Assembly (NCBI RefSeq): GCF_015100395.1
Contig: NZ_AP022847.1
Span: 62,001-126,000 of the forward strand
Source of the DNA: Nitrosophilus alvini
Lineage (GTDB): Bacteria; Campylobacterota; Campylobacteria; Campylobacterales; Nitratiruptoraceae
Reading direction: 5' to 3'
Length of the DNA stretch: 64,000 nt
The position numbers were made by a program, and so were the translations under genes. The notes under the pieces are model-generated. The model made no database searches. It was given only the letters and a program-made list of their open reading frames with translations, and had not been told where the DNA came from. Positions 8,136 through 62,920 of the stretch are shown here, in pieces. Each line of letters opens with the position of its first letter. Position 1 is the first letter of the stretch.

Positions 8136-9635
8136 ATGAAAAAAAGGATCCAAAAAGATGCTCAGGAGATTATTGAGGAGTATCTGAAAAAAGAGGGTAT
8201 ATCAAGAAGGGATGCCCTGAAAATTATGGGTCTTGGAGGTGCCGCAGCATTTATGGGAGGCGGTACGACCCAGGCAGATGCGGCGACCGAGGCAAAAGCT
8301 GCAAGTAGTGCGAAAGGAAAGATAGTTATTGTAGGCGGAGGTCTTTCCGGTGTTGCAACGGCTGCAAGACTTAGCAAACAACTCGACAATCCTGATATCA
8401 CCATAATAGAGCCAAATCCCAGAAGTGTATCCTATCAGCCGGGTCTTACACTGGTAGGCGGTTATGAATGGACGCCTAAAGATATACTTTATCAGACAAA
8501 AGACTTTATACCGAAAGGTGTAAAATGGGTTCAGGATAAAGTTGTTGAGTTTGACCCTGACAACAATAAGGTAAAAACCCAAAAAGGTGAGACAATCTCC
8601 TACGATTTCATGGTTATAGCGGGGGGACTTGAACTTGATTTTGGCAGAATCAAAGGGCTTGAAGAGGTAGGCACTCTATATACATTGGGACAAAATGAGA
8701 AAGCTGCACAGATATTCGGTGATAGCGGGGCGAGTTCAATCTATTTTGTGGATGGCGCCGAACTTATGAAGAAAAATATTAAAAAATTTATTGAAGATGC
8801 AAAGGCCGGCAAGAAGGTAAAAGGTATCTTTACCCATCCAAATACTCCTATAAAATGCGGCGGTGCACCTAAAAAGATAATGTTTCTTACAGATTCACAG
8901 CTGAGAAACGCAGGAGCAAGAGAGAATGCGGAGCTTACATTTTATCCGAACGGTTCAAAAATGTTTGGTGTGCCTGAATACAATGATGCAATATTTAAAC
9001 TTTTTGAAGAGAAAAATCTCAAATATCAGTTTGCCCATAACCTCACTGAAGTGGATCTTAATGCCAAAATAGCCGTTTTTGATCATCATTGGAAAGAAAA
9101 AGGCGAATGGGATCCGGATCTTGAAGAGTATACAGAAGTCGTAAAACATGAAAGAGTAGAGGTTCCTTTTGATCTTCTTCATATAACTCCTCCAATGAAA
9201 GCGCCTGATCTAATAGGAAAATCTCCTGTAGGAAGCTCAAAAGGTTTTATACCTGTAACATATGAGACGTTGCAGCACAAAAAGTATAAAAATATCTTCT
9301 CTTTGGGAGATATTGCGGCTGTTCCTCTTGGAAAAACCGGCGGAAGTGCAAGAAAACAATATAAAGTTTTAGTTGAAAATCTGATTTCCGTAATGGAAGG
9401 AAAAGAGCCAACTGCTCAATATAACGGATATACGGTTTGCCCGTTGATAACAGAGATAGGCAAGGTTATGCTTGCTGAATTTGTATGGGCCGATCCGGCA
9501 AACGGAAAATATAACGGAATCGTAGCTCCTTCGTTCCCGCTTGATCCTACAAAACCAAGATGGATTTACTGGGTGCTTAAAGTTTACCTGCTAAAACCGA
9601 TGACACAGTTCGGGATGCTAAAAGGGCTGGCGTAA
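8136..9635 (+). CDS. sqr: Sulfide:quinone oxidoreductase with twin-arginine signal
   Basis: The 499 residues oxidise sulfide and pass electrons to quinone at the periplasmic face of the membrane (family function). A Tat-type leader, SRRDALKIMGLGGAAAF, at residues 23-39 precedes the FAD-binding GKIVIVGGGLSGVATAA (61-77). C241 (IKCGGAPKK) and C435 (YTVCPLI) are placed like the two catalytic cysteines of type II SQR. NIFSLGDIAAVP is the distal FAD motif, and PRWIYWVLKVYLLKP near the end is an amphipathic membrane-contact segment. The ATG is preceded by AAGGAGCTGTT. This is the more canonical of the two SQR-like proteins here. Confidence 0.88.
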   Translation: MKKRIQKDAQEIIEEYLKKEGISRRDALKIMGLGGAAAFMGGGTTQADAATEAKAASSAKGKIVIVGGGLSGVATAARLSKQLDNPDITIIEPNPRSVSYQPGLTLVGGYEWTPKDILYQTKDFIPKGVKWVQDKVVEFDPDNNKVKTQKGETISYDFMVIAGGLELDFGRIKGLEEVGTLYTLGQNEKAAQIFGDSGASSIYFVDGAELMKKNIKKFIEDAKAGKKVKGIFTHPNTPIKCGGAPKKIMFLTDSQLRNAGARENAELTFYPNGSKMFGVPEYNDAIFKLFEEKNLKYQFAHNLTEVDLNAKIAVFDHHWKEKGEWDPDLEEYTEVVKHERVEVPFDLLHITPPMKAPDLIGKSPVGSSKGFIPVTYETLQHKKYKNIFSLGDIAAVPLGKTGGSARKQYKVLVENLISVMEGKEPTAQYNGYTVCPLITEIGKVMLAEFVWADPANGKYNGIVAPSFPLDPTKPRWIYWVLKVYLLKPMTQFGMLKGLA

Positions 9636-10844: not shown

Positions 10845-13800
10845 ATGAATAATGAGATATTAGGTCAGTTTCTGCTTTTTATGGCTTTGATTTTCGGTAT
10901 GAGCTATCTACTTGCAGGCCTTCTAGAACGGCTGAAAATTCCCGGTATTCTCTCTGCTCTTTTTATAGCTATGGCCTTGCACTATACTCCTTTGAAATCT
11001 ATGATGACTACAGGACCTATAGGTGATGTATTTACTGCACTGGCTGAACTAGGCGTACTGTTTTTACTCTTTTTTATTGGTTCTGAAATTGATATAAAGC
11101 AGATGCGTTCCCAAAGTAAAGATATTGTTGTTGCAACAGTATTAAATACGATTTTTCCTTTTATTTTGGGTGTAGCTGTAATGATATATCTGGGATATGG
11201 ATGGATGATAGCCTTTGTTATCGGGGTTACAAGGATGCCAACTGCAGAGGCTGTAGTTGTTCCCATACTTGATCAGTTCAGACTGACACGTACGAAAGTG
11301 GGCAGTTACATTATAGGCGTTGGAGTATTGGATGATGTAATAGAAGTTTTTCTTGTAGCTTTTGTCTCTGTTTGGATAGGAACGCTGCAGGCCGGTACAG
11401 GCTTTCTGGAAGGAGATATATTAAAAATAGTTTTTCATTTGATCGTATTTGTACTGTTTGCATGGGTGGCAAGAAGATGGATTTTAATACCTCTTTCCAG
11501 ATGGCTTGAAACAAAAGTATCAAATCTTATTTTTTTAGCCATTATTACACTTTTTCTTTTCGGAGGATATGCAGAATATTCCGAGCTTGGACTGGTTGTT
11601 GGCGCTATTACGGCGGGAATGCTTATGCAGCCTGTTTTTGATGCGGCCAATAAAGCGGGACAAAGAGCTGCTTATGCCATACGCGCTGTAAGTTATGGAT
11701 TTTTCGGGGTAATTTTCTTTTTATGGATAGGGCTTAGCATAGATCTTGAAGGGCTGATCAAGTCGCCTGAACTTGCAATTTTACTTTTTTTAGCTGCTTT
11801 TTTGGGAAAACTTATAGGTATTTTTTTGATGGTTCCTATGAAGAAACTATCGCCGAAAGAAGCATGGGTGATAGGAATAGGACTAAATGCAAGACTTACG
11901 ACGGAAATAATCGTTGCAAAACTTCTGCTTGATGCGAAGATTATCGATGTAAAACTTTTTACAGCTTTGGTTGCAGCCTCCTCTCTTTCTACGATTATAG
12001 TTCCCATATTTTTCTCAGCATTGGTTGTCAGATGGAAAAAAGAGATTTTTGTTTCCTTACCCCAAAAAGTAAAACCCAAAGCTGCTGAGAAAAAGCCGAC
12101 TGTGCCTGCTTGGTATGCAAAAAAGCCTGAAGAAGTAGCTTTGCTGTTGCATACGGATCCCCAAAAAGGTCTTTCCGAAGATGAAGCAAGAAAACGCTTT
12201 AAAATTTACGGGCCAAATCAACTGAAAACGGCTAGAAAAGAGAGATGGTATAAAATCCTTCTCCGTCAGTTTTCCGATATATTGATAATTATACTGCTTA
12301 TTGCAGCGGCAATCGCCTATGCGATCGGTGAAACAAGCGATACCTGGACAATACTTCTCATTGTTCTGTTAAACGGAATTTTGGGTTTTGTGCAGGAGTA
12401 TAGAGCCGAAAAGGCGATCGAAGCGCTTCAAAAGATGCTGAGTCCCCGTTGCAAAGTTATACGCGAGGGCAGAGAAAAAGAGATCGAGGCACGCTTTCTG
12501 GTGCCGGGCGACCTGGTAAAGCTGCAGATTGGCGACAAAGTTCCGGCAGATTTGAGACTGATAGAAGCGGTAAATCTCAAAGCCGATGAATCCGTTCTTA
12601 CCGGAGAGTCTGTTCCCGTTCCGAAACAGACAGACCCTGTACCGGAAAATACTCCTTTGTCAGGTAGAAGCTCTATGGTTTGGATGGGTACAAATATTAC
12701 AAATGGATATGGCAAAGGTGTAGTAGTCGCAACGGCTATGCGGACTGAATTCGGAAGAATCGCGAAAATGACAAGCGAAGTTGAAGAGACCAGAACGCCT
12801 CTGCAGAAAAAACTAGCAGTTCTTGGGAAAAAACTGGGTGTAATCTCTGTCGCTATATCGGCATTTGTTGCTATTGCTGGCTATTTTCTCGGAAAAGATC
12901 TTATGGAGATGTTTCTGACAGGAGTCTCTCTTGCTGTTGCAGTTGTCCCGGAAGGGTTGCCGGCAGTAGTAACAATAACTCTTGCATTAGGTGTAAAAGC
13001 GATGGTCAAGCAGAATGCACTATTAAGACGCCTTCAGGCTGCAGAAGCGCTTGGTAGTGCAAATTTTATCTGTACAGATAAAACCGGTACACTTACACAA
13101 AACCAGATGACTGTTAAAGAGATAAGGTTGATGGGGCACAGGTTACAGGTTACCGGAAGCGGATATGAACCGAAAGGCAGTTTTTTAGAAGAGGGTAAAA
13201 AAATCGATCCAAAAAGAGAGCCTGATCTGATTGAACTGCTAAAAACCGGTCTTATATGCAATCATGCATCCCTTTATAAAGAAAATAGTGAATGGAAAAT
13301 AAGCGGTGAACCCACGGAAGCATCTCTTATCGTAGCGGCATATAAGGCGGGAATAGTTCTTTCGAATGAAAAAATTATTAACGAATTTTCTTTCAATTCC
13401 GATAGAAAAAGAATGAGTGTAATAGTAGAGGAGAACGGAAAAAAGATCGCTTATATTAAAGGCGCGCCCGAAGTTCTCATCCAAAGAGCATCCTGGTATC
13501 TGGAAAACGGAGAGAAAAAGAGACTTGATGAAGATGCGAAAAAGAGGTTTGAGGAGTATTTTGGAGAGCTTGCAAAAAAGGGTCTGAGAACCCTCGCATT
13601 GGCTCGACGCGAACTGCCTGATGATATTCGTCTTGATGCAGAAGATGTGGAAAAGAATCTGACGCTGATAGGCGTTGTAGGGATTATCGATCCTCCTCGT
13701 CCTGAAGTACCAGAGGCAGTGAAAATGGCAAAATCCGCAGGGATAAAAGTTGTTATGATAACAGGGGACGCTCCTCTTACGGCTTTAGCTATAGCAAATG

Positions 13801-14795
13801 CAGTTGAGATGAAGTCAGAGGAGGTAGTCGTAGGTTCAGAGCTTGATAAAATGGATGATGAAGAGCTTGTTTCGCTTCTGAAAAAAGAGGCCGTTTTTGC
13901 CCGAACCACACCGGCACACAAACTGCGAATCGTATCGCTTTTGCAGAAGGAGAAAATGATTGTCGCTATGACCGGCGACGGCGTCAATGATGCGCCGGCT
14001 CTGAAAAAAGCGGATATCGGTATAGCTATGGGGCAGAGGGGAACAGATGTGGCAAAAAGTGCCGCGGATATGATACTGCTTGATGACAATTTTGCGACGA
14101 TTATAAATGCCGTAAAAGAGGGACGAAGACAGTATGATAATATAAAAAAATTTGTCACATATCTACTTTCTTCCAATACCGGTGAAGTAATGGCTATATT
14201 TATAAACATACTTTTGGGCGGACCCCTTATTTTGCTGCCTGTACAGATTCTTTGGATGAATCTGGTAACAGACAGCCTGACAGCTGTCGCTCTGGGTATG
14301 GAAAAAGCTGAAAAAGGAATTATGAAGCGTCCGCCCCTTTCTGTAAATGCGCCTTTTCTACAGACAAGGGGAGTCATTATGATACTGTTGCTTGGAGGTT
14401 ATATAGCTGCCGCTACGCTTTGGCTTTTTCACCACTATCTCTCTCTCGAAATGCCTCAGGCACAGGCTGTTGCCATGGCTCAGACAGCAGCCTTTACGGG
14501 CATAATAATACTTGAAAAGGTGAATGTATTCAATTACCGTTCTTTAAAAGATCCCATTCCTTTTATAGGCTTTTTCTCAAATCCATGGTTGATAGGTGCC
14601 TGGCTTTTGACTGTAGGAGCACAGGTTGCGGCTGTGTATGTACCTTTTTTACAGCAGACCCTTCATACCGTGCCTCTTCGCCTTGCTGACTGGGGATTGA
14701 TTTTTGCTGTTGCAGTTCCGCTTTTCGTTGCGGTAGAATTGTACAAATGGATCGAAAGGTTTATAGCCGGAAAAAAGGAAAATAGTGGTACTTGA
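10845..14795 (+). CDS. Fusion protein: CPA2-type cation/H+ antiporter joined to Ca2+-type P-ATPase
   Basis: The protein has 1316 residues. Residues about 1-400 are a Kef/NhaA-like CPA2 antiporter with a dozen hydrophobic segments, including [16 protein letters not shown] and the acidic [12 protein letters not shown] ion-path motif. A basic, proline-rich linker (about 400-420) leads into a full P2A-type ATPase: N-terminal cation-ATPase domain ([19 protein letters not shown]), TGES, M4 [18 protein letters not shown], phosphorylated Asp745 in CTDKTGTLT and hinge GDGVNDAP (1044-1051). SERCA-like Ca2+ ligands are kept in M4 (PEGL), M5 (SSNTGE), M6 (NLVTDS) and M8 (ILEKVN). The frame is continuous with no internal stop or start context at the junction. 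The ATG has AAAGGAAG upstream. Likely role: coupled Ca2+/H+ (or Na+) extrusion (inference). Confidence 0.88.
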
Positions 14796-48772: not shown

Positions 48773-50683
48773 ATGGTATTGGAGATAGATTTTTCATCAA
48801 AACAGAACTATATACAAAAATATATAAAAGCGATTGCCAAATATTCGAATATAGATATAAAAATAGGCAGAGAAGAGGATAAAATAGTTGTTTTATTTGA
48901 CGAAAAGAGTGAAAATGTCGAAAAATTTATGAAAAATCTGCAAGATTTATTGCCATATTCGCTTTTTATGGGCAAGAGCGGATATGTTGTATCAAACAGA
49001 GAGATAAATGAAGTCAAGTTGGTTGATATACCGCTCAGTTTGGGATTGTGCCCAAATTGTATCAAAGAGATGCTGGATGTAGAGTCGAGAAGATATTACT
49101 ATCCTTTTACTTTTTGCAGCAACTGCGGGGGACATTACGCTTTTTTCGAAAAATATCCCTTTATCAGGGAAAATACCTATCTTTCGCCTTTTAAAAATTG
49201 TGAAAAATGTGAAAATGAGAAACAGAACAACCCTTTTAGAGAAGAGTTCGCACTGATTTCCTGCATAGAGTGCAATATCCCGATAAGAGCCGAAAACAGA
49301 AAGGCTTCAAAAACCCTTTGGGCCAATGATAAAGGTGAATATAAAAAGGTTTTTGGAATCGCTGCTGCATCTATAAAAAATGGTGAAAAAGTTTTGGTTA
49401 AAACTCTGTTCGGATTTAGACTTTTTTGTAAAACACCAGTTGAAGACCAGAATATATTGATTACAAACGCAAACAGGGTTTCGAACCATTTTCTTCTTCT
49501 TTCTCAGGAAAAACATGCGCTTTTCAGTATAGAAAAACCTATAATCAGAGCAACCGTTTCCAATGAGAAGATAAAAGAGGATACAGGTACATCGGTTGCC
49601 AGGATAAAAGCTCCCGATGAGGGATTTACGCTGCTGCTTGCAAAAGAACTATCGATGGCGGGAATTGACTATATATATTACAGGGATGTGAAAGAGGAAA
49701 ATATCGATTACGATATCCTGATAACATTTGATTTGCCGATAAACACTCAGGAAGAGTGTGAATATTTTATCAATAAAAACGCTAAATTTTTTGCAAAAGG
49801 TGAGCGCTCACTCTTCCCAAAAATCTTTGAAAATGCTATAGATACTGTCAGTGTGGCAAAAGGATATGCGGCAGTCGGTTTTGAAGGAAAGACACTGATC
49901 GATAAAATAGATAAAGTTCCCAAATCAACGGCTGTTGAAGTCAAAGTTCTTGATAACGAACCTATAGAGATAGAGCACTCCAATATCAAGAGTTTTTCTG
50001 CTGACAAGGCTGCTTTTTTATCTGTAATTGCCGAAAACAATGTTTTTGACAAAAGTGCTGTGGGAGTCTATTTCTCAAAAAATGTCTCTTTTATGCTTTA
50101 CAGTGCCAAAAGGGCCAAAAGAGTGATGGAGTTTGGAAAGTACAACGCAGCAGCCATCCTAGATGATATAAAAACATTAAGAGAGGGTTCCGACAGGCTT
50201 GTAGAGAATTTTAAAAAGAGATTTGAGGATATTTGTGATCAGATTTCAAGGATAGAAGGAGAAAGAGAAGATTTTCTAAATACTGCCGCTATAATTGCGG
50301 GGATCGGTTCGGAAGAGGAACTCGCAAACAGAGCACTTCAGTTCGCAGGAAAAGGAGGAGTGGCGATTGATTGCGGATTTAGAGAGGGAAAGTTTGACTA
50401 CAGTTCATTTTTTGCCTCCATTATGAGTTATAAACTGGCGGATATCGACGAGCTTCTTCTTTGTTATTCCATTTTTGAATCGCTTGGGGATTTTATCGCT
50501 TCGGTGGTAAACGAAATAAGAGAAAAGACAAAAGCGAAAAATGTTGTATTGTCAGGAAAATACATAGCAAATCAGGTATTTTTCAGCAGATTTTCCACCA
50601 AACTGACATTCGCAAAGCCATTAATAAACAGAGAATTTCCTTGTGATGAGCAAAATTTTGTTTACGGAGGAATTTTTGTATAA
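48773..50683 (+). CDS. hydE: HydE, HypF-related hydrogenase accessory protein
   Basis: The 636 residues align in order with HypF. One zinc-ribbon pair is LCPNCIKEMLDVESRRYYYPFTFCSNCGGH, with a second set CEKCENEKQNNPF...CIECN. A YrdC-like middle region (about 240-420) and a degenerate Kae1-like end (VVLSGKYIANQVFFSRF, compared with the HypF VILSGGVFQNRIL) follow. The acylphosphatase motif VQGVGFRPF, the HHLAH metal motif and the DGTGYG loop of HypF are missing, so carbamoyl transfer is unlikely. It has a 17-base gap after hydD with AGAGGC. Probably a maturation helper specific to HydAB. Confidence 0.8.
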   Translation: MVLEIDFSSKQNYIQKYIKAIAKYSNIDIKIGREEDKIVVLFDEKSENVEKFMKNLQDLLPYSLFMGKSGYVVSNREINEVKLVDIPLSLGLCPNCIKEMLDVESRRYYYPFTFCSNCGGHYAFFEKYPFIRENTYLSPFKNCEKCENEKQNNPFREEFALISCIECNIPIRAENRKASKTLWANDKGEYKKVFGIAAASIKNGEKVLVKTLFGFRLFCKTPVEDQNILITNANRVSNHFLLLSQEKHALFSIEKPIIRATVSNEKIKEDTGTSVARIKAPDEGFTLLLAKELSMAGIDYIYYRDVKEENIDYDILITFDLPINTQEECEYFINKNAKFFAKGERSLFPKIFENAIDTVSVAKGYAAVGFEGKTLIDKIDKVPKSTAVEVKVLDNEPIEIEHSNIKSFSADKAAFLSVIAENNVFDKSAVGVYFSKNVSFMLYSAKRAKRVMEFGKYNAAAILDDIKTLREGSDRLVENFKKRFEDICDQISRIEGEREDFLNTAAIIAGIGSEEELANRALQFAGKGGVAIDCGFREGKFDYSSFFASIMSYKLADIDELLLCYSIFESLGDFIASVVNEIREKTKAKNVVLSGKYIANQVFFSRFSTKLTFAKPLINREFPCDEQNFVYGGIFV

Positions 50684-50883: not shown

Positions 50884-53181
50884 TTGCGGAAAATAAGAGC
50901 TGTAATAAAGATTAATGGCATAGTTCAGGGAGTCGGTTTTAGACCTTTTATCTATAAACTTGCGAAAGAGTACTATGCGAACGGTTTTGTTATGAATGAC
51001 GCAAAAGGCGTTCTTATAGATATTGATATTGAAGATGATAAAATCGACTCTTTTTTAAAAGCTATTTCGTATAAAAAGCCTTCGCTTGCACGTATCGATG
51101 AAATATCCTATAAGACTTTCGATTCTTTGCAACGAGACGGCTTTTTTATCAAAGAGAGTTGTTCAGACGTTGAAAAAAGCGCTGCCGTTTCTCCTGATAT
51201 AGCGGTTTGTGAAAACTGTCTCGAAGAGATGAGAAATCCACAAAACAGAAGATATCAGTACTATTTTATAAATTGCACAGATTGCGGTCCAAGATATACT
51301 ATAACAAGAACTGTTCCTTTTGACAGAAAAAACACTTCTATGGCCGAATTTGAAATGTGCCCGAAGTGTAAAGAGGAGTATGAGGATCCTCTTGACAGAA
51401 GATATCACGCACAGGCAATATCCTGTTTTGATTGCGGTCCGGGATTATGTATAAAAAGCAAAAAAGGAAAGACTTTTGCCGAGGGAATAGAAGCTATAAA
51501 AATGGCCGCCAAACTTTTGAAAAAAGGCAAAATTGTAGCGGTTAAAGGCTTGGGTGGATTTCATTTGATGTGTGATGCAACCAACGCAAGGTCGGTCAAG
51601 ACACTCAGACAGAGAAAAAACAGACAGTCCAAGCCTTTTGCCGTAATGTTTAGAAATCTTGACCAGATAGAAAGAGTGGCCGAACTTTCCGAAAGAGAAA
51701 GAGAACTTATACTCTCAAAAGAGAAGCCTATAGTAATCGTGAAAAAAAGAAAAATCCACAGACTTGAGTGCTACAAATACAAACTTGCAGCCTGTGTGGC
51801 TCCTGAGATAGACAGGCTAGGGGTGTTTTTGCCATATACCCCTTTGCAGCATATACTTTTTGAGTATTACGGATGTCCTCTTGTGGCTACTAGTGCGAAT
51901 ATGAGTGATGAACCAATAATAACAGACAGCGAAGATTTGCTAAAGAGACTGGGAAATGTTATCGATTTTTATATAGATTACAACAGGGAGATAGTAAACG
52001 CATGTGATGACAGCGTAATTCAGTGTATAGACGATAAGAAAGAGACGGTCAGACTAGCACGTGGTTTTGCTCCCAAAACTATAAAACTTCCCTTTTCAGT
52101 TGAAAAAAACATATTGGCAGTAGGTGCAAATCAGAAAAACAGTATAACAATTGCTATAAAAGATAAACTGATAATGTCACCTCATATTGGAGATTTGAAT
52201 ACTATTGAATCCTTTGGCTATTTTGAAAAAACAGTTGATACTTTCAAAAGATTTTACGATTTTGAACCAGATATTATAGTATGTGACAAACATCCCGGAT
52301 ACGAAACCACCAAATGGGCAGTAAAAGAGACTCAAAAAAGAGAAGGCGAAGTCGAACTTTTACAGGTTCAGCACCATCTTGCGCATATTTATGCGTGTAA
52401 AGCGGAACTTGGCATAGATGAGGATTGTCTGGGATTTAGCTGGGACGGTACAGGATATGGTGATGACGGTAATATCTGGGGCGGTGAAGTTTTCAAAGGA
52501 GACGAAAGAGCGTATCATTTCAAATATTTCAGGCTCATAGGCGGAGAAAAAGCTGTAAAAGAGCCAAGGCGCGCGGCACTTGGTCTTCTTTTTGAGATAT
52601 TTTCTTTAGATGAGATTTTGGAGATGGACAATCCCACCGTAAAGGCATTTTCCAAAGAGGAGATAAAACTTTTACATCAGGCCTATGAAAAAGGTCTCAA
52701 CTCGCCTCTTACAAGCTCGGCAGGTAGAATCTTTGATGCAGTTGCATCATTTGCAGGAATTATACAAGAATCCGGATACGAAGGCCAGAGCGGTCTTATT
52801 ATCGAAAAACTCTATAACGATATGTGCAGTGACTCCTATAAATATGAAATTAAAGATGGAATTATTGATATTTCGCAAATGATAAGGCAGATTTTAACGG
52901 ATCTGAATGCGAAAAACTGTACCGAAAAGAACTGCAAATGTATGATATCCACAAAGTTTCTCAATACGATGAAAAATATAATCGTAAATATTGCAAAAAA
53001 AGAGAATATGCCCGTGATTCTTTCCGGAGGAGTATTTCAAAACAGAATACTTTCTGAAAATGTTATAAAAGAGTTTGAGAAAGAGGGAATAAGATACTAC
53101 TTCCAGCACGATACCCCTATTAACGATGGTGGAATATCATTGGGACAGATATGGTATATTTTGTCCAAATATTCCAAATAG
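50884..53181 (+). CDS. hypF: Carbamoyltransferase HypF
   Basis: This prepares the cyanide ligand of the Ni-Fe site from carbamoyl phosphate together with HypE. The 765 residues contain an acylphosphatase domain (GIVQGVGFRPFIYKLA), two zinc fingers (CENCLEEMRN...CTDCGPRY and CPKCKEEYED...CFDCGPG), a YrdC domain (LKKGKIVAVKGLGGFHLMCDA, LVATSANMSDEPI) and a Kae1-like domain (LQVQHHLAHIYACKAE, SWDGTGYGDDGNIWGGEVF, ILSGGVFQNRIL). It starts at TTG behind AGGAGAGA. HypABCDE are elsewhere. Confidence 0.97.
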   Translation: MRKIRAVIKINGIVQGVGFRPFIYKLAKEYYANGFVMNDAKGVLIDIDIEDDKIDSFLKAISYKKPSLARIDEISYKTFDSLQRDGFFIKESCSDVEKSAAVSPDIAVCENCLEEMRNPQNRRYQYYFINCTDCGPRYTITRTVPFDRKNTSMAEFEMCPKCKEEYEDPLDRRYHAQAISCFDCGPGLCIKSKKGKTFAEGIEAIKMAAKLLKKGKIVAVKGLGGFHLMCDATNARSVKTLRQRKNRQSKPFAVMFRNLDQIERVAELSERERELILSKEKPIVIVKKRKIHRLECYKYKLAACVAPEIDRLGVFLPYTPLQHILFEYYGCPLVATSANMSDEPIITDSEDLLKRLGNVIDFYIDYNREIVNACDDSVIQCIDDKKETVRLARGFAPKTIKLPFSVEKNILAVGANQKNSITIAIKDKLIMSPHIGDLNTIESFGYFEKTVDTFKRFYDFEPDIIVCDKHPGYETTKWAVKETQKREGEVELLQVQHHLAHIYACKAELGIDEDCLGFSWDGTGYGDDGNIWGGEVFKGDERAYHFKYFRLIGGEKAVKEPRRAALGLLFEIFSLDEILEMDNPTVKAFSKEEIKLLHQAYEKGLNSPLTSSAGRIFDAVASFAGIIQESGYEGQSGLIIEKLYNDMCSDSYKYEIKDGIIDISQMIRQILTDLNAKNCTEKNCKCMISTKFLNTMKNIIVNIAKKENMPVILSGGVFQNRILSENVIKEFEKEGIRYYFQHDTPINDGGISLGQIWYILSKYSK

Positions 53182-55130: not shown

Positions 55131-55466
55131 ATGGGTGAACTAAGCGGAAAAATTTTGAGTCTCGACAAAAAAGCGGTTGAAATTGTGCAGAGTGCTGAAA
55201 AAAAAGCGAAAAGAGTTATGGCTCAGACAGATGAAAGATGTGAAAAGATATACAGCGAAACAGAAAAAAAGATATCAGAACTCAGAAACAGAAAATTTTC
55301 TGCTCTAAAAAAAGAGATAGAGTCTCTCAAAAAAGAGCAGAAGGAGTCTCTTGAAAAAAAGAAAGATGAAATTTTAAAGAAACTGAAAACTTCGGATATC
55401 GCAAAAAAAATAGCAAAATCGATACAAAAAAGTATATGCAGTAAAGATTTTGGGAAGAATCTATGA
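55131..55466 (+). CDS. atpH: A/V-type ATPase peripheral stalk subunit H (G-like)
   Basis: The 111 residues are almost wholly coiled coil, rich in Lys and Glu (KAVEIVQSAEKKAKRVMAQTDERCEKIYSETEKKISELR). The length and right-handed-heptad/hendecad style match the AhaH/AtpH stalk partner of subunit E. It is the first gene of the ATPase operon, ATGA-overlapped with the next, with AAAGGGAAAAG upstream. The sequence is too low in complexity for more than a contextual call. Confidence 0.7.
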   Translation: MGELSGKILSLDKKAVEIVQSAEKKAKRVMAQTDERCEKIYSETEKKISELRNRKFSALKKEIESLKKEQKESLEKKKDEILKKLKTSDIAKKIAKSIQKSICSKDFGKNL

Positions 55467-56314
55467 GTATGCTGATTTCAAAACCTTTGAGATTCGGTTA
55501 TATAAATGCCAAATGTAGAGCTTTAAAATCCGCAATTCTTGAAAAAGAGTTTTTCGAAAAGGCTGTTTTGGCAAAAAGCATAGGGGATATATATGCTCTT
55601 TTGAAAGATAGTTCATACTCTTCTTATCTAAAAGATGCAGAAAAAGAGAACATAGCCAGTGCACTTGAGAATTCATTCGAAGAGCTTTACAAAAAAAGTA
55701 CCTCTGTTTTGAAAAAAGAGGAAAAAGAGATATTTGATCTTTTTTTTCGCTCAAAAGACGAGCTTCTCAAAAAGAAAACGGCTTTTAAAGAGAGCAAAAA
55801 TTTGTCTGTTATTTATAGAAGAATAGATACAAAGTATATAAATTCGATAAAAAATTCACTTAAAAATCTGAAAAGGGAGGATAGAAAAGATCTCAAAGAG
55901 ATACTTGGAAGCTATTTTGATATGCTCAATCTTTTTACCATAGTGAGATTTAGAACGGTATACAAAATGGCTCCAGAGGAGATCATACCTTTTTTGATGC
56001 CTTATGGATGGAAATTTGATATAAAATTTTTGGGAAAAGTTGCAAATCTCTCTACTCTCTCAGAGATATCGGCTGCGATTGAAGAGGTCCTCAAAAATTC
56101 TTTTTACAGCTATCATGAGTTCAGACAGGCTGTTTACAGATACCATATGGACTCTCTTAAAAGAGTATGGTTTGGCTATCCTTTTAAAATGTCCGTTATT
56201 TTTGCGCTTTTAAGAATGAAAGAGATAGAGATAAAAAATATAAGAGCAGTTGTTGAAGGCATATATTATCGTCTTCCTCAAGATGATATAAAAAAGCTGC
56301 TGGCAGGAATTTAG
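55463..56314 (+). CDS. atpC: A/V-type ATPase subunit C (AC39 family)
   Basis: The 283 residues are mostly helical. The N-terminal FGYINAKCRALKSAILEKEFFEKAVLAKSIGDIYALLKDSSYSSYL is typical of the vATP-synt_AC39 fold, and the end WFGYPFKMSVIFALLRMKEIEIKNIRAVVEGIYYRLPQDDIKKLL is its strongest signature. It forms the funnel connecting the central shaft (D/F) to the membrane rotor. It is slightly shorter than archaeal C (about 350-380). Confidence 0.85.
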   Translation: MSMLISKPLRFGYINAKCRALKSAILEKEFFEKAVLAKSIGDIYALLKDSSYSSYLKDAEKENIASALENSFEELYKKSTSVLKKEEKEIFDLFFRSKDELLKKKTAFKESKNLSVIYRRIDTKYINSIKNSLKNLKREDRKDLKEILGSYFDMLNLFTIVRFRTVYKMAPEEIIPFLMPYGWKFDIKFLGKVANLSTLSEISAAIEEVLKNSFYSYHEFRQAVYRYHMDSLKRVWFGYPFKMSVIFALLRMKEIEIKNIRAVVEGIYYRLPQDDIKKLLAGI

Positions 56315-56316
56315 AG

Positions 56317-58134
56317 ATGTTTTTTCCGGAAAGTATGCTCAGAGTAGAGATAATTATACCGAAAGAGCATCTTTATAAAGAGCTTGAAGCTATAGGAAAA
56401 GCCGGGTTACTTCATATCGACAAAAGTAAAGGTCGCTCCTTTTCTTACGAGCTTCAAAACAGAGTAAACAAGCTGTTGGGAGTTGTAGAAGGATATCTTA
56501 AATTTTTGGGATTTCAGAGCGAAATAAAAAAATACCCTCACATGGAAGAAGAGTTTGGTAAAAATCTTTCGGAAACGGAAAAAAGAGTCTCAATAATAGC
56601 CCCTAAGATAGAGGAACTTTCCAACGCTTTTAAAAAAGTAGAAAAAGAAGAGAAGATGATAGAGAGTGCCCGGGAATTTGCACAGTCGCTCAAAAATGAT
56701 ATAGATGTTGAAAAAATAGCCCGAAGCCTGGAGTTTATAGGTTTCAAATCCATTGTTCTGCCGAGTGAAAATATTGAAACTTTTATACTTGCTTTGAAAA
56801 GATACGATCCTTTTGTAGTCTATAACAGTTTAAGTTCCGGGACAAAAGCCGTTGCTCTTTTTTATGATATTTCGGATGAAAACCACGTAATAAACGCACT
56901 TACAAAACTGGAAGGAAACGAGATACCCAAAGACTATTTTTTGAAAGAAAAAATCGAGGAGATAAAATCGAGGAGAGAAAAGATTGAATCGGATCTTGAA
57001 AAGATAAAAAAACTGCATGGCGAGGAGCTGCTGGGTATCTATGCAAATCTGAAACTTATGCTCAAAATCTTTTCTGCCCGCGGGGCATTGCAAAAATCGG
57101 GAGAGAATTATCTGCTTTACGGATGGGTACCGAAAAAACAGGCAAATAAATTTGAAAGAGCTTTAAGATATGCACAGGTTATCTTTTCAAAACCGGGGGA
57201 GGATACGCCTGTTTTGCTCAAAACCCCGAAAATACTGAAACCTTTTGAGACCTTGATAAAAAACTTCTCATATCCAAGATATCAGGAGATAAATCCTACA
57301 GTCCCTTTTGCCGCGGCTTTTCTGATAATGTTCGGAGTAATGTTCGGTGATATAGGACATGGACTGGTCCTGATGCTTGCCGGTTTTTTTGTTTCCAAAA
57401 AATTTCCAAAATATGAAGATTTGGGAAAGATATATATACTTGCGGGAGCCAGTTCCGTTATATTCGGCTTTATGTATGGCTCGGTTTTCGGATTTCACGA
57501 TATTGTTCCGCACATTCTTTTCAACCCGGTTGAAAATGTTGATATGATCATATATTCCGGTATAGCCATAGGTGTCTTTTTTATTACACTCAGTTTTATT
57601 TTAAATATCATCTCTCTTGCAAGGAGAAAAAAACTCTCGGCTCTTATAATGGGCGAAGGGGGAGTTTTGTGGCTGCTTATATACTGGTTTGCCATAGGAA
57701 TAGCCGTAAAAGCCGTTATTCTTGAGATGCCTGTAAAGTATGAGCTCTATATTCTGGGTGTGCTACTCGGTTTTTTATTTATTGTTCTGTTTATGAAAAG
57801 AAAAGAGTTCGCCCAAAGTCTTTTGGATACTATTATGCAGATGTTCGAACATGCCGTAAATACTATCTCTTTTATAAGGCTCGGTGCATTTGCTCTGGCG
57901 CATGGAGCACTGTTTCTAGCTCTGTTCTCCATCGCGGATATAGTATCGAAAACCCAGGCAGGAGGAATTACATACTGGTTTATAATCCTTTTAGGAAATT
58001 GCTTTATAATTGTTTTAGAGGGTGTTGTTGTGACTATCCAGACACTGAGACTCGAATATTATGAGTTTTTCAAACGATTTTTCAAAGGAGGCGGTGAGCC
58101 TTACGAACCTTTTGTATTGGAGAGCGAAAAATGA
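56317..58134 (+). CDS. atpI: A/V-type ATPase membrane subunit I (a-like)
   Basis: The 605 residues have an N-terminal cytoplasmic half (1-320) with coiled coils that binds the stalks, and a C-terminal half with seven to eight helices. The essential arginine of the ion half-channel is in SFIRLGAFALAHGALF (about 510-525). NPTVPFAAAFLIMFGVMFGDIGHGLVL is another family mark. It is the stator of the proton or sodium path. Confidence 0.93.
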   Translation: MFFPESMLRVEIIIPKEHLYKELEAIGKAGLLHIDKSKGRSFSYELQNRVNKLLGVVEGYLKFLGFQSEIKKYPHMEEEFGKNLSETEKRVSIIAPKIEELSNAFKKVEKEEKMIESAREFAQSLKNDIDVEKIARSLEFIGFKSIVLPSENIETFILALKRYDPFVVYNSLSSGTKAVALFYDISDENHVINALTKLEGNEIPKDYFLKEKIEEIKSRREKIESDLEKIKKLHGEELLGIYANLKLMLKIFSARGALQKSGENYLLYGWVPKKQANKFERALRYAQVIFSKPGEDTPVLLKTPKILKPFETLIKNFSYPRYQEINPTVPFAAAFLIMFGVMFGDIGHGLVLMLAGFFVSKKFPKYEDLGKIYILAGASSVIFGFMYGSVFGFHDIVPHILFNPVENVDMIIYSGIAIGVFFITLSFILNIISLARRKKLSALIMGEGGVLWLLIYWFAIGIAVKAVILEMPVKYELYILGVLLGFLFIVLFMKRKEFAQSLLDTIMQMFEHAVNTISFIRLGAFALAHGALFLALFSIADIVSKTQAGGITYWFIILLGNCFIIVLEGVVVTIQTLRLEYYEFFKRFFKGGGEPYEPFVLESEK

Positions 58135-58406
58135 AAAAATTACCGGTTATCTTTTTATTTATGGCACTGCCTGCCGTTTTGATGGCAGATGACAACGGAT
58201 GGGCATATATAGCCGCTGCTTTGTCTGTAGGGCTTGCATGTATTGCGGCAGGTATAGCTGTTGGGCTTGTAGGAGCTTCAGCTATGGGGACAATGGGAGA
58301 AAAACCGGAAATTTCAGGCAGAGCACTCATATTCCTGGGTCTTGCCGAAGGAATCGCCATCTACGGCCTTATAGTATCTATTATGATTTTGGGAAAGATA
58401 GATTGA
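58131..58406 (+). CDS. atpK: A/V-type ATPase proteolipid subunit K (c-ring)
   Basis: The 91 residues have an N-terminal signal-like stretch (MKKLPVIFLFMALPAVLMA), then one hairpin of two helices (27-52 and 62-88) with the ion-binding Glu73 in LGLAEGIAIYG. The usual Na+-type glutamine in the first helix is not evident, which favours H+ (weak inference). The four-base ATGA overlap continues the operon. Confidence 0.9.
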   Translation: MKKLPVIFLFMALPAVLMADDNGWAYIAAALSVGLACIAAGIAVGLVGASAMGTMGEKPEISGRALIFLGLAEGIAIYGLIVSIMILGKID

Positions 58407-58705
58407 AACTTTTTTTTCTGGGTAATAAAGAGGAGTGTCTAGGTTTTTCTCTGGCCGGTGCGCAGAGTATTCAGGTGCGAAATGAAGATGATTTTGTTGA
58501 AACTATGGAAAAACTGCTCAAAGAGAAAGATACAGGCGTCATTATCGCTGCAGACCGCTTTTTTGAAGTCTACTCTTTGAAGTTTTCCAAAAAAAGAAAG
58601 AAAAAAGCTGTTCCGGCTGTTGTTTTTGTTCCTTCAATAGAGGGCAAACATATAAAAAGAGATATAAAAGGATATATATCAGGTGTACTCGGAATCAGAC
58701 TTTGA
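58403..58705 (+). CDS. atpF: A/V-type ATPase subunit F
   Basis: The 100 residues start at TTG, overlapping the atpK stop (TTGA). The Rossmann-like pattern KLFFLGNKEECLGFSLAGAQSIQV, then DDFVETMEKLL and TGVIIAADRFFEV, and a strand VPAVVFVPSIEG, fit the CheY-like central-stalk subunit F. The upstream open frame is a shadow of atpK. It is easy to miss because of the TTG start. Confidence 0.85.
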   Translation: MKLFFLGNKEECLGFSLAGAQSIQVRNEDDFVETMEKLLKEKDTGVIIAADRFFEVYSLKFSKKRKKKAVPAVVFVPSIEGKHIKRDIKGYISGVLGIRL

Positions 58706-59222
58706 AAACTTTTCAAGAAAGATACTCTCTTCGGCTAAAAACAGAGCAGAAGAAATTTTGGAAGAAGCACGGGAGTATGCCAGAAAAAAGATAGAAAATG
58801 CACAAAATGAGGCCCTTGCCACTCTTAATGAGGCTGCTATAAAACTGCGAAAAGAAGCCGAATCTTTTAAGAAAGAGGAGTATACAAAACTTGAATCGGA
58901 ATTAAAAATAGATTGGCAGCTCTTTTTATCAGATATAAAGGCCGCCGTTTTGGCGGATACTCTAAAAGAGATAGAGCGAAATTTCGAAAAAATGGCCGGA
59001 TGTTTTTTAAAATGGCTCAAAGAGATTTATAAAGAAGGTAATTTGACGGTTTATGAAAATCTTGAAACCGAAGGGTTTGATAATTTCAATATAACAAAAA
59101 CTCCGCAAAAAATCGTAAAGTTTTCAAAAGAAAATATTATCATAGAGTTCAGTCCCGAATCTGTGATGGAAGAGTTTTCTGTAATGATAGATGAAGAGCT
59201 CTCAAAACATATAGAGGTTTAG
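58683..59222 (+). CDS. atpE: A/V-type ATPase peripheral stalk subunit E
   Basis: The 179 residues have a long N-terminal coiled coil (FSRKILSSAKNRAEEILEEAREYARKKIENAQNEALATLNEA) and a C-terminal globular domain (NIIIEFSPESVMEEFSVMIDEELSKHIEV) typical of vATP-synt_E. It pairs with subunit H. The GTG start lies 23 bases inside atpF with AAAGGA upstream. Confidence 0.85.
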   Translation: MYSESDFENFSRKILSSAKNRAEEILEEAREYARKKIENAQNEALATLNEAAIKLRKEAESFKKEEYTKLESELKIDWQLFLSDIKAAVLADTLKEIERNFEKMAGCFLKWLKEIYKEGNLTVYENLETEGFDNFNITKTPQKIVKFSKENIIIEFSPESVMEEFSVMIDEELSKHIEV

Positions 59223-60962
59223 ATGCCGTATATATCATATATTTCCGGTCCTGTTGTCAGAGTTTCTCTGGATGGAGAAAAAGCGAGTCTTTATGAGCTT
59301 GCTTTTGTGGGAGAGGCGGGTCTTATCGCCGAAGTTGTTGAGGTTTCAAAGAATGAAGCAGTTTTGCAGGTATATGAAAACAGTGAAGGACTGAAACTTA
59401 AAGAGAGCGTAAAATTTACCGGCGAAATGTTTTGTGCGCATCTTGGGCCAGGCCTTTTGGGATCAGTTTTTGACGGGATTCAAAGACCTCTGGATAAAAT
59501 CGGCGAAAAGATACAAAAAGGTTTGATGCTATACTCTTTGGATAAAGAGCGTAGATGGCATTTCAAACCTGTTAAAAAAGTAGGCGATGAGGTGTTGCCG
59601 GGAGAGTGTGTAGGAGAGGTCCGTGAGCGCGGCCTCATCCATAAAATCATGCTTCCTTCCGATACCAAAGGAGTTATAGAGTATATTTCTTGCGAGGGAG
59701 AGTACGGAATAAAAGAGGAGATTCTTCGCCTTGAAAACGGCTTTTCGATGAGTATGGTGCAAAAAGTTCCTCTAAGAATTCCAAGAGAGTTTAAAAGCCG
59801 TGAAAGTTCGTACGAGCCTCTTCTTACGGGACAAAGAATAATCGATTTTCTGTTTCCGGTTGCAAAAGGTGGAGCCGCCTCAATTCCAGGAGGATTCGGT
59901 ACGGGAAAGACAATTTTGCAGCAGACTCTTGCAAAATGGAGTGATGCCGATGTTATCGTATATGTAGGATGCGGCGAAAGAGGCAACGAAATGACGGAGG
60001 TTCTTGAAGAGTTTCCGGAACTCAGCGATCCAAGAAGCGGCAAAAAACTTATCGACAGAACAGTCCTGATAGCAAATACTTCGGATATGCCGGTCTCTGC
60101 CAGAGGCGCTTCCATACTTTTGGGTCTGACAATTGCCGAATATTACCGTGATATGGGCTATCATGTGGCTCTTATGGCCGATTCAACCTCAAGATGGGCC
60201 GAAGCTATGAGGGAGATTTCAGGCAGAATGAACGAACTGCCGGCCGAAGAGGGTTTTCCAGCTTATCTTGCTTCAAGCATAGCCGCCATATATGAAAGAG
60301 CAGGAATGGTGGAGACGCTGGACTCAAACAGAGGTTCGGTTACGATCATAGGTGCGGTATCACCTCCCGGAGGCGATCTTTCCGAGCCTGTCACAAGAAA
60401 CACCAGGCGTTATACAAACGCTTTCTGGGCTCTTGACAGGGAGCTTGCAAGTTCAAGGTTTTTCCCTGCCATAAACTACAATCAAAGTTACAGTGCATAT
60501 GCAAATATCTTGAAAGAGTGGTGGGACAGAGTTGATGAAAATGCTTCCGCACTAAGAGAGTGGATGCTTTGGGTTTTACAGAAAGACTCATCTTTGCAAA
60601 AAATCGTAAAACTTTTGGGAACTGAAGCGCTGCCTGAAGAGCAGAAACTGTTGGTGGAAACCGCTTCGCTGATAAAAGAGATTTTTCTGCAGCAGAATGC
60701 TTTTGACGCGATAGACGCCTATTCGACTCCTGAGAGAATCATAAAGATGGCAAAAATAATCTGCACAATCCAAAGAGTATGGCAAAAATGCTACAAACAA
60801 AGACGTATTCCCGTGGAAGTTCTCAAGTCTCAGCCAGTTGTATCGGAGTTTGCAAGAGCAAAGTTTGAAATAAAAAATGAGGAATTGGAAAAGTATGATG
60901 AGATTGAACAGAGGGTTATAAAGAGTTTTGATAAACTTATCGAAGAGTACGGCAGGAAATGA
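59223..60962 (+). CDS. atpA: A/V-type ATPase catalytic subunit A
   Basis: The 579 residues have the P-loop [17 protein letters not shown] (about 222-238), catalytic Glu in [27 protein letters not shown], and the non-homologous insert at about 110-190 ([22 protein letters not shown]) that distinguishes A/V-type A from F-type beta. Length is standard for the family. It hydrolyses or makes ATP. Confidence 0.97.
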
Positions 60963-60963
60963 T

Positions 60964-62337
60964 ATGTTTATAGAGTACAAGGGGGCTTTGAGGATAAAAG
61001 GCAATCTTCTCTTTTTTGAAACTGTAGAGGATGTGGCCTACGGAGAAAAAGTACTGATAAAATATCAGGGTCGTGAAATATACGGCAGAGTCGCCGCTGT
61101 GGGAGAAAAGACAACCCTTATAGAGATACTTGGCACCACCTACGGTATCGGAGTGGAAGGGCTAAGGGTAAAGTACAGCAAAGAGCCTTTTATGATAGGA
61201 GTCGGAAGGTCTATGCTGGGACGTATATTTGATGCGTTTGCCGAACCGATAGACGCAATGGGACCTGTCGTGATAGAAGATAGGCTGGATATTTCAGGTT
61301 CGGCCTACAATCCGGCAAAAAGAGTCCATCCAAGAGACTATGTGCATACAGGAATAAGTGCCATAGATGGTCTCAACACTCTTGTAAAAGGACAAAAACT
61401 TCCCATATTTGCACTGTCAGGGGTTTCAACTGACGAACTTGTTGCACAGATAGTAAGACAGATAGGGGCTGCACATAAAAAAAGTGCTGTCGTGTTTGCA
61501 GCCATAGGAATAAAACATGAAAATGCAGACTTTTTTATCAAAAACATAATGGCGAGCGGTCAGTATAAAAATACCGCTGTTTTCATTAACAGAGCGGATG
61601 AGCCCAGTGTAAATTCACTATTGTTGGCAAGAAGCGCACTTACTTTGGCGGAATACCTTGCTTTTGAGCATGGATATGATGTTGTGACAGTTTTGTACGA
61701 TATGTCCAATTATTGTGACGCTTTACGGGAAATTTCGGCAAAAAGGGAAGAGATTCCCAGTAGAAAAGGGTATCCCGGATATATGTACAGCGATCTTGCG
61801 ACAATATATGAAAGAGCCGGTATTATGAAAGAAAAACCGGGCTCTTTGACACAGATTCCGGTATTGACAATGCCCGACGACGATATAACCCATCCCATCC
61901 CTGATCTGACCGGATATATAACCGAAGGTCAGATAGTACTAGACAGGGGGCTTCATCAGATGGGGATTTATCCTCCCATAAACGTGCTGACATCTTTGTC
62001 GAGACTTATGAACAAAGGAATCGATAAAGTTCATCAAAGAGAGTCAAACCAGCTCTATGCCGCATATTCCAAAGCCAAAAGAGCGCAGATGCTCTCTTCC
62101 ATAGTGGGAGAAGAGGAGATATCCGAAACTGATAAAAAATATCTGGAATTTGGTCGGGCTTTTGAAAAAGAGTTTATTTCGCAGGGAAATTATGAAAACA
62201 GAACGTTGGAGGAAACTTTGGATATAGGCTGGAAGCTTTTGGGAATGCTTCCCGATATAGAACTGACCCGTCTAAAACCGGAAGATATTAAAAGATATAT
62301 AGATGGCAAGAGAAAACAGCAAAACGGCACTTCTTGA
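60964..62337 (+). CDS. atpB: A/V-type ATPase regulatory subunit B
   Basis: The 457 residues start at the ATG at 60964 with AGGAAATG upstream; the open frame from 60928 lies in atpA. The non-catalytic nucleotide site lacks a P-loop ([18 protein letters not shown]). [41 protein letters not shown] and [37 protein letters not shown] are highly conserved. Confidence 0.96.
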
Positions 62338-62920
62338 ACTCAAAACCGAACTTGAGGTTGCATCCGGTGGCGAAGAGATACTTGAACAGAAAAGAAATAT
62401 CCTTTTAAAAGAGATAATCTCTTTGCTGGATGTAGTGGACGAAAAGCGCAAAATTGCAGACGAAATGGTGGTAAAAAGCTATCGTCATCTTATCAAGGCT
62501 TTTATGGAGAGCGGATACGAGAGAGTTGAGAAAGAGAGCGCTCTGGTGAAGTTTGATGCTGAGCTGAGTGTGGTTTCCAAAAGTTTTATAGGCATAGTCG
62601 TTCCGGAAGTCTATTTCAAAAAAAAGAAGAAAGAGCTTCCTGTAGGATATGTTTCAGAATCCGTCTATATCGATATTGCACGGAATTCTTTTGCAAAGGC
62701 TCTCGAACTTATTCTAGAACTTTCAAGCATAGAGATAAAAGTCTGGAGGCTTGCTGAAGAACTTAAAAAAACGGTTATAAGGGTAAACGCTCTTAAAAAC
62801 TACTATCTTCCAAAATACAAAAATGAGATAAAAAGGATAAGTTCTTCTCTTGAAGAGTCTGAAAGAGAGTTTTTGGCAGTTTTAAAAATTTTACAAAAGA
62901 GAATCGAACCTTTTGAATAA
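62303..62920 (+). CDS. atpD: A/V-type ATPase central rotor subunit D
   Basis: The 205 residues are two long helices. The N-terminal [32 protein letters not shown] resembles the conserved TRMxLLxLKxxLxxAxxGxxLLKxKRDxL, and the C-terminal RRVNALKN-like [21 protein letters not shown] matches the conserved RVNALE block. The ATG is 35 bases inside atpB; the usual TR at the start is ENSKT. It is the last ATPase gene and converges with the next gene. Confidence 0.9.

Follow-up and report, generated by a model that had tools for sequence, protein, structure and literature searches.

Introduction

Studies of P-type pumps and of secondary antiporters normally treat the two as separate machines. KdpFABC is a case in which a P-type ATPase forms a physical unit with a transport protein from a different superfamily, as in the fusion described here; unlike the fusion, it is a P1A-type pump that imports K+, made of separate subunits with a channel-like partner, and we claim no homology between the two. 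The ATPases SERCA1, LMCA1 and SPCA1 have the P2A core and fold in common with the fusion, but none of them carries an N-terminal antiporter. In Salmonella, mgtCB encodes an MgtC-type protein together with a P-type ATPase, as at our locus; there, however, the ATPase is a P3B Mg2+ pump, MgtC lacks a DUF4010 domain and no antiporter is present.

The closest described neighborhoods are those of bacterial SERCA/PMCA-like P-type ATPases, which commonly adjoin Na+-H+ exchangers and other transporters (Schaffer et al, 2020; PMC7016017). According to the available part of that paper, the same two kinds of partner occur there in conserved gene neighborhoods; the genes described in it are separate, and it contains no mention of an in-frame fusion, of a DUF4010 partner or of the extra acidic residues reported below. 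Our literature search likewise found no report of the fusion, of its Usp or DUF4010 partners or of these acids, which is weak evidence given the incomplete coverage of the search.

Results

One uninterrupted frame encodes an antiporter and a P-type ATPase

The window analyzed is a 64,000-nucleotide stretch of the genome of Nitrosophilus alvini, a vent-type bacterium whose assembly consists of one 1.81-Mb contig and is 99.95% complete. Positions 10845–14795 of the forward strand form a single 1316-aa frame with an ATG start, a TGA stop and no internal stop (Table 1). Pfam recognizes, all above the cut-offs, Na_H_Exchanger (19–394; 150 bits against a cut-off of 26.2), Cation_ATPase_N (423–491), E1-E2_ATPase (530–722), a HAD hydrolase (743–1057) and Cation_ATPase_C (1127–1303), which bears out the in-frame antiporter/P-ATPase fusion proposed by the first-pass annotation.

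Table 1. Features of the fusion locus (positions in the window).
Feature	Position	Strand	Basis
CPA2/NapA-like antiporter domain	10845..12035	+	residues 1–397; PF00999, PDB matches, invariance, model helices
Linker	12036..12110	+	residues 398–422; length kept, sequence not; predicted disordered
Complete P2A Ca2+-type ATPase	12111..14792	+	residues 423–1316; Pfam, ligand alignment, fold match
MgtC + DUF4010 membrane protein, 424 aa	14785..16059	+	GTG start; Pfam

The rarity of the architecture is the only point in favor of an artefact of sequencing, assembly or annotation that joins two genes. The same fusion, however, occurs in many genera of Campylobacterota (1306–1325 aa, 56–70% identical), in several cases on single contigs, so that the junction, whose conservation had at first only been raised as a question, is found in independent genomes; neither a stop nor a frameshift separates the domains, and the 16 fused frames all read through without a stop. 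This recurrence of the intact fusion excludes a frameshift or chimera, and we attach a negligible probability to an artefact. An internal re-start giving a separate ATPase is also unlikely: the in-frame codons preceding the ATPase core are only TTG or GTG and lack a Shine-Dalgarno-like motif, and the candidate codons and their positions differ among fused relatives.

The ATPase half retains both Ca2+ sites of SERCA

The C-terminal half carries the P2A signature (the DKTGT aspartate, the A-domain motif, the hinge, and the N- and C-terminal cation ATPase domains). D745 and GDGVNDAP are both present and the Pfam domain set is complete, as expected for the full P2A-type ATPase initially described; D745 and E588 are invariant in 33 of 33 ATPases of the clade. 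Alignment to rabbit SERCA1 (residues 749–994, verified as identical to the PDB chains and covering six ligands, not E309) pairs SERCA N768 and E771 with N1111 and E1114 in M5, N796, T799 and D800 with N1139, T1142 and D1143 in M6, and E908 with E1224 in M8, while E309 was assigned to E703 in M4 from the PEGLP motif and the clade alignment. Note that N1230, paired by eye with E908, was overturned by the SERCA1 alignment. All seven ligands of sites I and II are invariant in the 33 clade ATPases, and the SERCA-like ligands previously claimed for M4, M5, M6 and M8 are thus all found, that of M8 included. The two sites are as in SERCA, whereas in LMCA1 and SPCA1 the site-I residues corresponding to E771 and E908 are missing.

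The NCBIfam scores lie narrowly below the cut-offs for the PMR1 type (763.4 versus 798.3) and the SERCA type (666.7 versus 703.4) and above the lower cut-off for the PMCA type (521.2 versus 507.05). The modeled ATPase half matches the SERCA and SPCA1 folds (E ~1e-50). No other P2-type ATPase was found in the genome; the remaining P-type matches (696 and 806 aa) are far more distant.

The antiporter half has a NapA-like ion site with three additional acids

In the PDB, the N-terminal half matches NapA (5bz2/4bwz) and KefC. Its ion-site residues are D163, D164, K322 and R350, of which the first three correspond to NapA D156, D157 and K305 and are invariant in 55 of 55 antiporters; the AlphaFold2 model shows discontinuous NapA-like helices with breaks at 130–134 and 347–351. 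Thermus NapA thus has the fold family and these residues in common with the fusion antiporter, but NapA-type paralogs are only 24–28% identical to it. The KefC-type Gln-Asp motif is absent, with Asp-Asp standing in its place, and the score under the NCBIfam CPA2 model TIGR00932 (100 bits) is below the cut-off of 238.3. On these matches we place the antiporter as a divergent member of CPA2, in agreement with the class first assigned to it.

Compared with NapA and KefC, the protein lacks a KTN domain and adds, besides the ATPase, three acids that characterize its clade. E135 is invariant in 55 of 55 sequences; E167 and E354 are each present in 54, the one remaining sequence having a gap there. 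None of the three occurs in NapA, in NapA-like and KefC-like paralogs or in the other CPA proteins of relatives that were aligned; the lone glutamate at column 354 outside the clade comes from a row (L142) whose alignment is not that of an antiporter. In the model, E135 and E354 are predicted directly after the two helix breaks, and E167 three residues past the Asp-Asp pair. These acids are a new observation and our main lead on the ion carried. They might form a divalent-cation site, and the candidate ions are Na+, suggested by the NapA-like residues, and Ca2+, suggested by the three acids and the Ca2+-type partner.

The antiporter could, then, be a Ca2+/H+ exchanger, both halves exporting Ca2+, one as a high-affinity ATP pump and the other as a high-capacity proton-driven exchanger. 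The near-invariance of the acids within the clade, their absence from the other CPA proteins aligned, their modeled positions and the fused Ca2+-type pump all speak for such a same-ion unit; yet the Asp-Asp pair and lysine of NapA, a known Na+/H+ signature, are all retained, and the additional acids may instead serve proton coupling or salt bridges. To our knowledge, no CPA2 Ca2+/H+ exchanger with such acids is known. We regard this reading as possible and hold it tentatively. Doubtful, and offered as a conjecture, is its extension in which the antiporter represents a new CPA2 subtype swapping Ca2+ or another divalent cation for H+ through E135, E167 and E354, and the fusion a single-chain Ca2+ exporter running on ATP and the proton gradient, whose halves would hand over or balance ions inside a single dimeric particle.

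The linker is conserved in length and not in sequence

Between W397 and W423, the linker measures 21–28 residues in 16 fused proteins that belong to two separate fused groups. Mean identity among these proteins is 17% over residues 398–422 versus 65–72% in the flanking domains, and AlphaFold2 predicts disorder over residues 401–420 (pLDDT 35–47), a pattern consistent with a flexible tether whose length, but not sequence, is under constraint. The fusion model, from which the last 116 residues (1201–1316) were left out, has a pTM of 0.46, and the relative placement of the two halves in it is therefore uninformative. The C-terminus of NapA and the N-terminus of SERCA are both cytosolic. The corresponding ends are expected to be cytosolic here as well, which makes the join topologically sound.

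The same pair is adjacent but unfused in distant bacteria

Six of 60 relatives carry the intact full-length fusion (64–70% identity), and, in a phylum-wide sample of 397 genomes, 13 have an open frame of at least 1319 aa spanning the antiporter and the ATPase start. Querying named genomes with the antiporter alone returned 44 loci. Thirteen are fused, one of them (L057) frame-broken; 19 have a separate ATPase directly downstream, either as the next gene or ~450 bases away; three have DUF4010 and no ATPase; and the other nine are truncated at contig ends, stand alone, have decayed or are related only distantly. The unfused adjacent pair was found in loci labelled Pseudomonadota, Thermodesulfobacteriota, Nitrospirota, Myxococcota, Hydrogenedentota and Actinomycetota, although most unfused loci are from MAGs and some of the phylum labels may therefore be wrong, and also in Planctomycetota (complete chromosome CP036526) and Sulfurovum-type Campylobacterota. 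The ~450-base gap holds a Usp frame in the seven loci examined, and the four tested all pass the PF00582 cut-off. No antiporter of this clade was found on plasmids.

Because the fusion is common to many relatives and its parts are neighbors in distant bacteria, the two halves very probably work together; the functional link between pump and exchanger, at first only an assumption, is now backed by the same pair standing adjacent but unfused in several phyla. Sister ATPases (~48% identity) have no adjoining antiporter in either of the two loci read, which indicates that the pairing is specific to this ATPase clade. On Leisingera plasmids, these sister ATPases adjoin a universal stress protein gene and no antiporter (L105, 5959–9555). 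The pairing is not absolute: genome G462 encodes a member of the ATPase clade with no antiporter nearby, and several have the antiporter and DUF4010 without the ATPase, so that the halves can work apart. On a contig labelled as a Diapherotrites archaeon (L079, 1–2555), a P2-type ATPase (44% identical) is directly followed by a distant CPA antiporter; with the genes in this reversed arrangement, the pairing may have had more than one origin.

P-type ATPases with regulatory terminal domains exist, and this precedent, together with Usp, a nucleotide-binding regulator family, as the usual third partner outside Campylobacterota, would suit an antiporter half that acts as a regulatory or pH/Na+-sensing domain for the pump and not as a transporter. 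Every transport residue of the antiporter is nevertheless invariant, and its persistence with DUF4010 where the ATPase is missing fits an active carrier; we consider a sensor quite improbable.

The fusion is a derived form of an older gene pair

Beyond the fused clades, separate adjacent genes encode the two proteins; by this comparison, the fused form, specific to Campylobacterota, derives from an older operon and is not the ancestral state. Separate genes at the locus, which the first-pass annotation would have counted against the fusion, do exist, but only in more distant genomes, where they explain its origin and do not refute it. On informal comparison, the antiporter and ATPase trees give the same major groups. 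Fused loci fall into a main Campylobacterota clade and a second group of two MAGs carrying the label Sulfurospirillum (L058 and L061). A single clade of all fused loci was rejected (AU p 0.03 for the ATPase and 1e-4 for the antiporter, on quick trees and with the grouping seen before the test), which implies either two origins of the fusion or one split. At the unfused Sulfurovum-type loci of Campylobacterota, the stop codon of the antiporter overlaps the ATPase start or lies very close to it, such that a small indel can fuse or split the frames.

The fused state is ancestral to several losses. In G008 the ATPase is deleted, leaving a C-terminal relic (VVELYKWF) just upstream of DUF4010, while antiporter and DUF4010 are kept; the gene is broken in G006, and the frame in G399/L057. 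This decay in some relatives indicates that the fusion is not indispensable.

The ease of joining the frames by a small indel raises the question of a neutral fusion, that is, of co-expressed independent transporters joined by loss of a stop and start, with a tether that does no more than equalize expression. The unconserved linker sequence is compatible with it, as are the halves standing apart elsewhere and the survival of antiporter and DUF4010 in G008. However, the fusion has persisted across many genera at 56–70% protein identity, the linker length is held at 21–28 residues in both fused groups, and the pairing itself is older, being present in other phyla, all of which speak against a neutral fusion, which we consider rather unlikely.

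A conserved MgtC/DUF4010 gene follows the fusion

The next gene, annotated at first pass as DUF4010/MgtC-like with an 11-base overlap, indeed encodes both domains (MgtC 11–134, DUF4010 182–393; Pfam) and overlaps the end of the fusion by 11 bases. It adjoins every fused locus whose downstream sequence could be read, and it likewise follows the unfused Sulfurovum loci L060, L062 and L064. The three-part ion module suggested earlier therefore stands within Campylobacterota, where the DUF4010 partner is conserved, but not elsewhere, where the third partner is usually Usp. Beyond MgtC/DUF4010 the genes differ between genera, which delimits the module as a two-gene unit. The AlphaFold2 model of the protein (pLDDT 82.5) gave no match among solved structures (best E 0.37), and its conserved motifs are GGL(I/V)SSTAV and SGxTDVDAITLSLS. 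It is probably an accessory or regulatory membrane subunit.

Other features of the window

Positions 55131–62920 hold a V/A-type rotary ATPase operon in which subunits C, I, F, A, B and D were recognized, with a 91-aa c-type proteolipid at 58131–58406. Among 298 sampled genomes of the phylum, only 8 have close relatives of its A subunit. The N. alvini genome additionally carries an F-type ATP synthase, along with a second F1-beta-like gene (G000:C1:496221). A NiFe hydrogenase pair is followed downstream by a 636-aa HypF-type frame with only weak partial HypF matches (48773–50683) and then by a complete 765-aa HypF (50884–53181). The frame at 8136–9635 encodes a Tat-signal-like FAD/NAD oxidoreductase that is distantly like type III sulfide:quinone reductase, far under the family cut-off.

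Discussion

We favor, at a probability of about 0.62, a two-motor cation-efflux protein, tethered 1:1 and powered by both ATP and the proton gradient. With catalytic and ion-site residues kept in both halves, both are most likely active, and we infer the transport activities, ions, direction, dimerization and direct coupling of the halves as follows. The C-terminal half would be a two-site SERCA-like Ca2+-ATPase that exports about two Ca2+ per ATP, with H+ in return; the N-terminal half, a NapA-type antiporter of a distinct clade, would export Na+ or Ca2+ against H+. The disordered tether of 21–28 residues would join the antiporter C-terminus to the ATPase start on the cytosolic side, and the most likely role of the fusion would be to impose a 1:1 ratio and to hold both transporters at the same place in the membrane. 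There, the half driven by ATP and the half driven by protons would share ion gradients and jointly lower cytosolic Ca2+ and alkali cations; if the antiporter dimerizes as NapA does, the particle would comprise two antiporter units and two pumps. Note that two genes of the Na+/Ca2+-exchanger family are present in the genome as well, so the fusion is not the only candidate Ca2+ exporter.

The fusion also directs attention to a CPA2 subtype whose ion site is unusually rich in acids, and its locus for the first time places the MgtC/DUF4010 membrane family in a functional context. A repeatedly conserved fusion, together with the unfused form of its operon ancestor that survives in other phyla, offers a direct route to asking whether primary and secondary cation transport are physically coordinated.
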